Positions 6,231-40,935 of a stretch of 64,000 bases of DNA are shown piece by piece (within the stretch, counting starts at the first letter, position 1; the number at the start of each line of letters is the position of its first letter). Below the pieces are notes generated by a model, which did not search any database, was not told the DNA's origin, and saw only the letters and a list, made by a program, of their open reading frames with translations. The stretch is from Terriglobia bacterium (lineage in GTDB: Bacteria > Acidobacteriota > Terriglobia > Terriglobales > Acidobacteriaceae), in NCBI GenBank assembly GCA_021324365.1, contig JAJPJE010000049.1:1-64000 (forward strand), read 5' to 3'. Position numbers and translations under genes: made by a program.

Positions 6231-7646
6231 TTGAAAACGGCTGTCCATTTCACGCGCGGATACGTCTTCTTACTCATCTTCTTCCTTGGCGGTTCCCTTG
6301 CACAGGAAAAGAAGCTGACCGTCTACTCTCCGCAGGGTTCCGCGGTCTACGCCGTTGTCGATCGAAATGGCACGGAATATCTCGCGCTGCAGGACATATT
6401 GAGCCAGTTCGGAAACGTGAGCACGAAGCAGTCCGGAAGCACGTTTTCCATCCGCTTCACAGGACGAAGTGGGCCGCCGATCGATGCGACTTTCGCTCAA
6501 AACAGGACCTCAGGTAGCATTGGCAAGCGCAGAGTCGAACTGCCTTCGCCTTTCCTCCTGTCTGGAGATCGGGGACTTGTACCAGTTGCTTCGTTACCGC
6601 AGTTGCTTCCCGGGTTTACGGGAACAACCGTGAGTCTGCACCAGTTGGCGAGGCGCTTGTTTGTGGCAAGTGCCTCTACGAATTACGGATTCGACTTGCA
6701 GAGAACCGCGCCGCCTCGTCTGGTCCTTCACTTCTCCACGCCGGTGAATCCTTCCGTAGCAACCGAGCCCGGGCGCCTGCGCATGACGTTCTCTCGCGAG
6801 CCTCTGATCGCGACTTCGAAGTCTACGAATCTCGGCGATAACACGTTTTCCACTCTTACCTATAACGAGTGGAACGGTACGGCCGAATTGTCGGTTTCCG
6901 CCAACGCCCCTCTACTCGCCAGCTTCGGCGACGGTGGTAAGACCATCACCATCACGGCCCAGGCGACTCCGCAGTCGCTTGCAGCCACTCCGAAACAAAA
7001 TCAGGTACCGGGAGCTTCGGCCACTCCGAACACGGCCGCTGTACCGCCTCTTCCCCAGCCTCCGCATTTCACGATCGTCCTCGATCCCGCGCACGGAGGA
7101 GAAGACCGTGGCGCGGCGTTAACGCCGACGCTCCCAGAAAAAGATGTAGTGCTGGCCTTTGCACGCCGGCTTAGAACCGCGCTGCAGAATCAGGGAATCG
7201 ATGTCATCCTTCTGCGCGATTCCGACGTCGCGCTCTCCGCCGATCAGCGCGCCATAGCGGCCAATGCTGCTCGTCCTGCATTGATTCTCTCCATCCACGC
7301 GACTTCCAGCGGATCGGGCGTCCATTTGTTCACGGCGATGCTTTCGCCTGCTCCCCGCACCGCATTTCTTCCCTGGGATACGGCGCAAGCCGCGTTCCTG
7401 AATGACAGTAGCGCGATTGCCGCAGCTGTGTCGAAGCAACTGAACAGCCGCGATATCGAGGATGAATCCTTGTCTGCCCCCTTACAACCTCTCAGCAGCT
7501 TCGCACGGCCCGCGATCGCAATTGAATTGACGCCGCTCAATGGCAAAGCCGATTCGCTCGGACTCCCGTCATACCAGCAGCCAATCATCACCTCCATCAC
7601 AGCCGCCATTACGGACATGCGCCCACTTCTGGAGCAATCACGGTGA
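6231..7646 (+). CDS. N-acetylmuramoyl-L-alanine amidase (AMIN + Amidase_3)
   Basis: A 471-residue exported cell-wall hydrolase with a TTG start followed by a signal peptide (VHFTRGYVFLLIFFLGGSLAQ). The N-terminal half has AMIN-like beta-rich character (about residues 150-240) and a Pro/Ala linker precedes the Amidase_3 domain (about 280-465). The zinc-site motifs are visible: LDPAHGGED (His), TLPEKDV (Glu), LSIHA (His), and the late AIAIELTPL Glu. It cleaves the amide between MurNAc and the stem peptide. Its stop overlaps the GTG start of the next gene, so the two are translationally coupled. Confidence 0.9.
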   Translation: MKTAVHFTRGYVFLLIFFLGGSLAQEKKLTVYSPQGSAVYAVVDRNGTEYLALQDILSQFGNVSTKQSGSTFSIRFTGRSGPPIDATFAQNRTSGSIGKRRVELPSPFLLSGDRGLVPVASLPQLLPGFTGTTVSLHQLARRLFVASASTNYGFDLQRTAPPRLVLHFSTPVNPSVATEPGRLRMTFSREPLIATSKSTNLGDNTFSTLTYNEWNGTAELSVSANAPLLASFGDGGKTITITAQATPQSLAATPKQNQVPGASATPNTAAVPPLPQPPHFTIVLDPAHGGEDRGAALTPTLPEKDVVLAFARRLRTALQNQGIDVILLRDSDVALSADQRAIAANAARPALILSIHATSSGSGVHLFTAMLSPAPRTAFLPWDTAQAAFLNDSSAIAAAVSKQLNSRDIEDESLSAPLQPLSSFARPAIAIELTPLNGKADSLGLPSYQQPIITSITAAITDMRPLLEQSR

Positions 7647-8233
7647 TTTCCAGGGCTCTCTTCATCACCATGTTGTTCCTGCTCATTGGGGTTGTCGCGC
7701 TCGGAATTTATGGCCTTCACCTGAAACATCAGATGGAGCTCAGTGCCGAACTCGCCCCAGAAGCAAAGCCTGTCGCGGCGCCTGTGAATGGCAGTACTGC
7801 GATCATTGCCCTTTTTGTCCCGGAGGATGGCAGTGGCGTCCTGGTTCGACGTGACGTCAGCGTGGAAGTTCCCTCGGGCCAGAGTGGTCGGGTTCGCGAA
7901 ATCCTTCGCGCCCTGGTCAGTACCTGCCAGGCCAAGAATTCGACCCATCCATTATCATCGGACGCCGACATCCGTGAGGTATTTCTGCCATCGCCGAATC
8001 TCGCCGTCATCAACACCAACGCAGCATTCGCAGACGGTCACCGTTCCGGCATTCTTGTGGAAGAACTCACTCTGGCCGCAATCGCGCGCACCCTTGCCGT
8101 GAACATGCCGGACATAAAACAATTCAAATTACTGATTGACGGCAAAGAGCGTGAGACACTAGCGGGACATGTGGATCTGCTCGAGATTTATCCGACCGAC
8201 CAGCAGACCTGGGCACAGTTGCTGCCACGATAG
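7643..8233 (+). CDS. GerMN domain protein, membrane-anchored
   Basis: A 196-residue protein with one N-terminal membrane segment (residues 5-25) and a GerMN domain (about 50-190), a module first described in Bacillus GerM and commonly found in exported envelope proteins. The GTG start overlaps the amidase stop by four bases, so it is the second gene of an amidase-GerMN operon. A role in the cell wall alongside the amidase is inferred from that coupling. Confidence 0.85.
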   Translation: MISRALFITMLFLLIGVVALGIYGLHLKHQMELSAELAPEAKPVAAPVNGSTAIIALFVPEDGSGVLVRRDVSVEVPSGQSGRVREILRALVSTCQAKNSTHPLSSDADIREVFLPSPNLAVINTNAAFADGHRSGILVEELTLAAIARTLAVNMPDIKQFKLLIDGKERETLAGHVDLLEIYPTDQQTWAQLLPR

Positions 8234-8238
8234 TCTGC

Positions 8239-8390
8239 CAGTTTTTCAGTCTCTCAGTCTTTCAGTGTTTCTGCCTTCCGCTTCGCAACTGAGCGACGGC
8301 TGTAGTCAAAATAGCGAAAACTGAACAGATCGACTGACCGACTACAGAACTGACGGACCGAAGAACTAACCGACTGATAGACTAAAAACC
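8239..8390. repeat. Inverted array of degenerate octamers upstream of rph
   Basis: Left array: four contiguous octamers CAGTTTTT, CAGTCTCT, CAGTCTTT, CAGTGTTT (8239-8270). Right array: seven contiguous octamers starting ACTGACCG (8333-8388), all of form ACYRNNNN, preceded by looser units from about 8320. The right units are the reverse-complement type of the left (CAGT versus ACTG). The array ends two to three bases before the rph start codon and leaves no visible Shine-Dalgarno. No reading frame is supported here. Confidence 0.8.
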
Positions 8391-8391
8391 A

Positions 8392-9129
8392 ATGTTCTAT
8401 CGATCCGACAATCGTGCGCCGGACCAGATGCGTCCGGTGAAGATAATCCCCAATTTCATTTCCACTGCCGAAGGCTCAGCCCTGATTGAGGTGGGCAACA
8501 CGCGTGTCATCTGCACAGCTTCCATCGACGAGGCCGTGCCGTCGTGGATGCGCAACTCCGGAAAAGGCTGGATCACCGGCGAGTACGGCATGCTTCCTCG
8601 TTCTACGCTGACCCGCACTCCTCGTGAAGCGAGCAAGGGAAAGCCCAGTGGACGCACGCAGGAGATTCAGCGACTCATCGGCCGTTCTCTTCGGGCAGTT
8701 GTCGATATGAAGCAACTCGGCGAGCGCACTGTCTGGATCGATTGTGACGTAATTCAAGCCGACGGTGGCACCCGCACCGCGTCGATCACCGGCTCTTTTG
8801 TTGCGTTAGGAATCGCGCTCTCACGACTGGTGGAAGCCGGTACTTTAACGGCTGTTCCGGTCCGTGATTTCGTTGCCGCCACCAGCGTTGGAATCGTCGA
8901 CGGCGAAATCTTGCTCGACCTCGCTTATGAAGAAGATTCTCGCGCGGAAGTCGACATGAACTTTGTCATGACAGGCGCAGGCAAGATGATCGAAGTGCAG
9001 GCAACCGCCGAACAGGTGCCGTTCGATGACACACAACTGCAGCGCATGATGGAGTTGGCTCGCAGAGGCGTGCAGGACCTGGTAAACCTGCAGCGAGAGT
9101 TACTGCCCGTGCTCGTGAATGCGAAATAG
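8392..9129 (+). CDS. rph: Ribonuclease PH
   Basis: A 245-residue phosphorolytic 3'-5' exoribonuclease that trims tRNA 3' ends using phosphate. Recognisable family motifs are RAPDQMRPV at the N-terminus, [16 protein letters not shown] (about residues 58-73), [19 protein letters not shown] (about 86-104), [18 protein letters not shown] and the C-terminal [14 protein letters not shown]. The length is typical. It follows the amidase-GerMN operon on the same strand after 158 bp occupied by an octamer array, which replaces the usual ribosome-binding region. Confidence 0.95.
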
Positions 9130-12977: not shown

Positions 12978-12981
12978 TTTG

Positions 12982-13100
12982 TAATTGGGTCAGTTGGCAA
13001 TTTGATAATTGAAAAATGCAAGGCTGAGGACCTGATCGGACTCAAAACTCGCTTTTTTCATAACCCAATTGGAAATCCCCCAATTACCCAATATTTTTAG
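12982..13100. repeat. Inverted array of degenerate octamers between dinB and the HdeD gene
   Basis: Left array of four contiguous octamers TAATTGGG, TCAGTTGG, CAATTTGA, TAATTGAA (12982-13013). On the right, CCCAAT recurs at 13064, 13079 and 13087, the last two eight bases apart. TAATTGGG (12982-12989) is exactly complementary to CCCAATTA (13079-13086). It occupies the convergent junction and runs into the last codons of the minus-strand gene. Confidence 0.65.
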
Positions 13101-40869: not shown

Positions 40870-40907
40870 TTCAGGTTACCTACCGCTTGCACGATGAGCT
40901 TTCGACG

Positions 40908-40935
40908 ACTAACCACTACCCACTAACCACTTTTT
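40908..40935. repeat. Heptamer array in the xerD-xerC gap
   Basis: Contiguous heptamers ACTAACC, ACTACCC, ACTAACC, ACTTTTT (40908-40935) spanning the end of xerD and the spacer before xerC. Confidence 0.45.

Follow-up and report, generated by a model that had tools for sequence, protein, structure and literature searches.

In the 23S rRNA intervening sequence (IVS) of Coxiella burnetii, tandem GACAGAT heptamers lie directly 5′ of an S23 ORF, and the sequence is excised by RNase III (PMC4990558). IVSs of this kind are stem-forming insertions with an optional S23 ORF and degenerate tandem heptamers at the ORF edge, in which they resemble the rph-type elements described here, and they are considered selfish or formerly mobile (PMC4990558). 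Intergenic heptamer repeats near gene ends, GGGAATC and GGGGA(T/C)T, are described in Xanthomonas and Nostoc (PMC4692102). The Xanthomonas heptamers share with the present elements their frequent occurrence as inverted pairs (70 and 75 cases); the repeats of both genera differ, however, in having a uniform G-rich unit that was read as G-quadruplex-forming, and four-helix or S23 proteins are not mentioned in that paper (PMC4692102). Direct repeats of TAACTGA in marine Beggiatoaceae were proposed as a translational regulator; they are similar to the present elements in their period of 7, their ACTGA core and their intergenic position directly before start codons, including in ribosomal protein operons, but consist mostly of one identical unit in one orientation, with only one inverted case (PMC4679880). 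MITEs, REP/BIME and other intergenic palindromes are likewise small, intergenic, inverted, dispersed and ORF-less. The copies of a MITE or REP resemble one another, whereas the elements described here share a unit motif and a period only, and the protein associated with them is an S23/four-helix-bundle protein, not a known transposase or RAYT. We know of no function for the S23/IVS proteins, themselves long known, and of no cause for the bacterial heptamer repeats, which have been described separately in several phyla.

The window analysed here, a stretch of 64,000 nt from a soil bacterium of the Terriglobia (Acidobacteriota), contains two inverted octamer arrays in the gap upstream of rph. 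The element that they delimit sits between protein genes and not within a 23S rRNA gene; 23S rRNA IVSs lie inside that gene, whereas the dozens of elements of the present class, with their many motifs, are found in gaps between protein-coding genes. The rph element is further unlike the Coxiella IVS in having octamer units and no ORF, and RNase III excision, known for the IVS, would be only a possibility for the rph element. We propose, with a probability of about three in four, that the rph arrays are the arms of an ORF-less (non-autonomous, MITE-like) member of an IVS-related class of S23 elements.

Inverted octamer arrays in the rph gap

The features of the region are as follows.

7643..8233, + strand: upstream gene with a GerMN (Germane, PF10646) domain, whose TAG stop directly adjoins the element
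8234..8391, + strand: whole intergenic element, arms and core, 158 bp from the stop of the GerMN-domain gene to the rph start
8239..8270, − strand: left array, octamers CAGTTTTT CAGTCTCT CAGTCTTT CAGTGTTT, which are ACTGANNG units on the − strand
8239, 8247, 8255, 8263: unit starts of the left array, each CAGT
8271..8332, no strand: core, 62 bp, without an S23-type ORF; a weaker unit forms its 3′ end
8325..8332: this weaker, eighth right-hand unit, ACAGATCG, which precedes the right array
8333..8388, + strand: right array, seven octamers, consensus ACTGANNG
8378..8383, + strand: TAGACT, a −10-like hexamer 8 nt 5′ of the rph ATG and within the last array units, putative from comparison with relatives
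8392..9129, + strand: rph, RNase PH, with matches to PF01138 and PF03725

The seven units of the right array (ACTGACCG ACTACAGA ACTGACGG ACCGAAGA ACTAACCG ACTGATAG ACTAAAAA) are contiguous and are followed directly by CCA and the rph ATG. The left (CAGT) and right (ACTG) arrays are one motif on opposite strands, ACTGANNG running outward from the core, and the left array fits the genome-wide pattern ACTGANNGACTGANNGACTGA with 0 mismatches. Both were detected by TRF, at periods 8 and 16, and when the 64 kb were scanned in 48-base windows they gave the top two period-8 scores (30/48 and 27/48, against about 12 expected). A preliminary description of this DNA had reported four CAGT octamers on the left and seven ACT or ACC octamers on the right in inverted orientation, and these were confirmed at the positions given above; the flanked core, put at 60 bases, measures 62 bp and includes the weaker unit at its end. 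Its view that degenerate units in strict period do not reflect simple recent slippage is also supported, the same motif being present inverted in both arms. A simple sequence repeat, with direct repeats only and a private motif, is ruled out by the inverted partner array and by the dispersal of a common motif.

The rph gap was predicted to fold as a single terminally closed stem (−43.7 kcal/mol, z −2.9), with 1 of 200 shuffles as good. An effect on message structure, as earlier suggested, thus stands to the extent that this predicted stem could structure the message; the companion suggestion of an effect on translation is unsupported. Rfam covariance models gave no match at E ≤ 1 in 7900-8700, and promoter and terminator scans found nothing specific. 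No similar copy of the gap was found elsewhere in the genome; since it matches only itself, a MITE or REP with homologous copies is ruled out for this locus.

The rph upstream regions were compared across relatives. Close rph relatives (68-80% protein identity) are mostly array-free, and in those with the same gene upstream, about 70 bp without an array separate it from rph; period-7 arrays lie directly before rph in four other relatives (L242, L251, L254 and L263), with a different motif in each. Most array-free relatives lack an obvious Shine-Dalgarno (SD) sequence and carry TANAAT 6-10 nt 5′ of the rph ATG, and this box, seen in most Terriglobia relatives among the upstream regions L072-L077 and L241-L262, suggests that rph transcripts are leaderless in this group. 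Because most array-free relatives are without an SD too, its absence at rph is not caused by the array, and the claim that the right array replaces any SD was not upheld. The TAGACT of the window occupies the position of the relatives' TANAAT box; if this putative promoter is used, the right array would be mostly upstream of the message and not in its leader.

It is accordingly improbable that the right array is a putative translation-factor site in a 5′ leader that controls rph translation, given that array-free relatives look leaderless and that similar arrays lie equally 3′ of stop codons and in convergent gaps, with no start codon near. Such a role would agree with the end of the array 3 nt before the rph start codon and with the Beggiatoaceae TAACTGA repeats, which are located equivalently relative to start codons and seem to take the place of SDs there (PMC4679880).

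Period-7 and period-8 arrays in three genomes

Arrays were surveyed in 1.16 Mb of the window's own genome and in two relatives, G018 and G037, by self-match in local windows with a threshold of 20/32. Global intergenic autocorrelation had shown no clear period-8 signal, being too diluted, and local windows were needed. At each of the two periods, 8 and 7, intergenic sequence of the own genome held 17 places (shuffle means 0.6 and 0.5, respectively), densities that are upper estimates because the sampled contigs were partly chosen for holding the motif. The period-8 signal therefore exceeds that of shuffled intergenic sequence, the control named in the preliminary description; periods 9, 10 and 13 were at background. 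G018 had 43 and 16 such intergenic places at periods 7 and 8, and G037 had 14 and 12. In all three genomes the intergenic excess over shuffles was clear at 7- and 8-base periods and at twice these lengths, while some other periods, mostly 6, 9 and 12, were modestly above shuffles in G018 and G037.

Three-unit ACTGANNG chains with ≤3 mismatches occurred 58 times in the genome, compared with 9 for a reversed control. GTAATTG octamers and GCTGANN heptamers behave like this motif, and the three lists, merged by hand, give about 52 distinct places. Many array motifs were found when places were read individually, among them GAACTGA, AATTCGGC, TTTCACG, AACTGTA and GTAATTGG. The arrays are commonly inverted pairs whose outer ends lie near a stop codon on one side and a start or stop codon on the other, and they avoid short divergent gaps (5/97 vs 94/536 for gaps of 45-200 bp, p 0.0012). 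An account of the rph arrays as a local regulator, as first offered, misses this dispersal: they are one of dozens of elements, in a class that is linked to S23/four-helix-bundle genes. For annotators, such repeats in Acidobacteriota are probably the ends of elements and not leaders or regulators of each adjoining gene.

Several individual places were recorded. At window positions 12978-13096 lies a second ORF-less element, with GTAATTGG-type octamers following one stop codon and their inverse, the CAATTACC type, ahead of the stop codon of the convergent neighbour. A short intergenic period-7 array (ACTAACC) at 40905-40935 is single, without an obvious inverted partner. Contig C58 (L035, 6565-17792) carries about seven array elements with different motifs between consecutive genes of what appears by eye to be a ribosomal protein operon. 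The same small unannotated protein (..RYALRFLWNATKGHRLAPWRSPYLRWRIETYCG..) is encoded at L027 (about 1200-1500) and at L235:5200-5480, in two genomes, with arrays of different motifs just upstream, and had no Pfam match; the same holds for a small gene next to arrays in C122 and G018.

S23 ORFs between inverted arrays

The lead to S23 proteins came when one array gap of G037 was set beside the corresponding regions of its genus-mates. The G037 gap (L217:5702-5868, 167 bp) has ACTGA octamer arms; the same gap in G048 is ≤33 bp and array-free, and the orthologous gap of G049 holds a different element, with heptamer arms around a PF05635 ORF. PF05635/TIGR02436 is the 23S rRNA intervening-sequence (S23, four-helix bundle) protein. 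At a further G037 site (L217:9522-9954) an S23 ORF has ACTGA octamer arms, while in G049 the neighbouring genes overlap there as TAATG, an empty site, and the G046 junction begins with an array of another motif.

A search for the family found nearly all intact S23 ORFs in five S23-bearing genomes between inverted arrays. Among 39 distinct S23/four-helix-bundle ORFs from 61 relatives, taken mostly best-scoring locus first and about one per genome, 34 passed a both-sides array score whose thresholds were fixed after the data had been seen and which was applied to home-made gene models (27 at period 7 and 7 at period 8). Both-sides scores averaged 32.5 for period 7 and about 20-22 for control periods, and ordinary genes in three array-rich samples passed the same score in 39/906, 42/324 and 78/297 cases.

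Within one element the left arm corresponds to the reverse complement of the right, with no such agreement in direct orientation, and when arms were compared across all elements the own partner ranked first for 15 of 26 elements with heptamers and for 7 of 7 with octamers. The arms do not form a palindrome over their whole length: apart from the motif itself, the order of variable units in one arm shows no complementarity to that in the other (mean z 0.10), so conservation concerns the unit and no long exact palindrome. Arms are mostly of 4 or 5 units. The unit motif differs between elements, and its similarity rises weakly with S23 protein identity (Mantel r 0.27, p 0.0016); AGTTCTC units, for instance, are common to three related S23 proteins and GTTTC units to another clade. 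Period 7 or 8 was rejected as a marker of S23 clades, being at most weakly clustered (5 changes vs 6.5 shuffled).

Full members of the class are thus an S23/four-helix-bundle ORF between two inverted arrays, mostly of 4-5 degenerate 7- or 8-base units, and in short members the ORF is missing and the inverted arrays enclose only a core. Both kinds are intergenic, often reaching exactly from stop codon to start codon, and related species differ in having or lacking an element at a site. Periodicity, an inverted matching motif, dispersal, association with S23 in several phyla, and filled and empty orthologous sites were all observed directly.

Two other origins of the arrays were weighed against these data. 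As selected host elements, the arrays would be intergenic stems (3′-end protectors, attenuators, terminators or RNase III sites) made of units for a host protein, and S23 ORFs would merely tend to fall into such gaps. The avoidance of divergent gaps, the placement between stop and start codons, the closed stems (z −2.9 and −6.8) and the recurrence of arrays with differing motifs upstream of rph in five relatives would all fit; even so we consider this origin unlikely, in view of a unit motif that is element-specific and follows the S23 protein, of orthologous gaps that are mostly empty in relatives, and of S23 ORFs that are bracketed far more often than other genes. That the arrays are a mutational by-product, duplicated by slippage in steps of preferably 7-8 bp and then decaying, with neither function nor mobility, is very improbable. 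Slippage does not give rise to a second, inverted array built of that unit, and one motif at dozens of unrelated places and the association of arrays with one protein family argue against it also, although degenerate units, the long near-perfect arrays of some genomes (e.g. a Pseudanabaena plasmid) and the variation of IVS array length among Coxiella strains (PMC4990558) are what slippage would leave.

For membership of the rph arrays in the S23 class, the closest counterpart is an element of G037 (L316) in which ACTGANNN octamer arms like those of the rph gap surround a PF05635 ORF. In the window's own genome, which is 95% complete, the search returned no S23 ORF armed with ACTGANNG octamers. 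ORF-less arrays of G037 resemble that genome's own S23 arms, and this is clear there only; the corresponding match was weak in the own genome (p 0.076) and not detectable in G018 (p 0.28). Because 8234-8391 contains no S23/four-helix-bundle ORF, the rph gap can be an ORF-less member only. Counting against the class reading are the absence from that gap of an S23 remnant, its lack of a similar copy and the weak own-genome motif match, together with 5 of the 39 Terriglobia S23 ORFs that are without arrays and two of eight plasmid cases with arrays on the same strand.

Distribution and proposed movement of S23 elements

S23/four-helix-bundle proteins are related to Avd of diversity-generating retroelements. 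The relative with a solved structure is 2GSC (XCC0516), which has been reported as a toroidal homopentamer (PMC4990558). It is possible, though we hold it only tentatively, that a pentameric S23 protein binds the 4-5 units of each arm; that each subunit may take one unit of 7-8 nt is an attractive putative reading. The elements probably move, and the bound arrays could mark both ends of an element for insertion, at the DNA or the RNA level, so that binding of both arms would serve movement or maintenance and ORF-less copies would be served in trans. Transcribed arms would pair into a stem, possibly cut by RNase III as in rRNA IVSs; on this proposal, processing of the stem would explain why insertion between the genes of an operon is tolerated. 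No target-site duplication has been established for the elements.

Beyond Terriglobia, 12 of 20 scored S23 ORFs passed the same score (Nitrospirota, Desulfobacterota, Proteobacteria and others), in a sample made up of genomes reached through other rph loci. Five of eight plasmid records, from Azospirillum, Geminocystis, Nostoc, Trichormus and Picosynechococcus, had inverted matching arrays around S23 ORFs. The arrays of the Pseudanabaena and Gemmatirosa records were same-strand and not inverted, and the Calothrix record had a downstream array only.

These findings point to a widespread, largely overlooked class of probably mobile elements. A broader and more doubtful proposal is that S23/four-helix-bundle proteins are the putative mobility factors of tiny elements found across phyla, with inverted arrays of 4-5 units (7 or 8 nt) as ends and one unit per pentamer subunit, and that such elements and their ORF-less derivatives might explain the Xanthomonas, Nostoc and Beggiatoaceae heptamers as well as the rRNA IVSs. 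The link between S23 proteins and arrays would then give S23/IVS proteins and bacterial heptamer repeats a common explanation, based on element-specific matching inverted arrays, on 4-5 units facing a pentameric protein, and on filled and empty sites. IVS/S23 elements themselves are already known; it is the link across phyla between the S23 ORF and degenerate 7/8-mer arms that deserves follow-up. In the open-access literature searched, no earlier account was found of array-flanked S23 ORFs located elsewhere than in rRNA.

Two array-armed S23/four-helix-bundle genes on cyanobacterial plasmids lie among CRISPR genes, one between cas10 and a cmr3-family gene (L390, NZ_CP016476.1) and the other between cas6 and cas4 (L383, NZ_CP112875.1).
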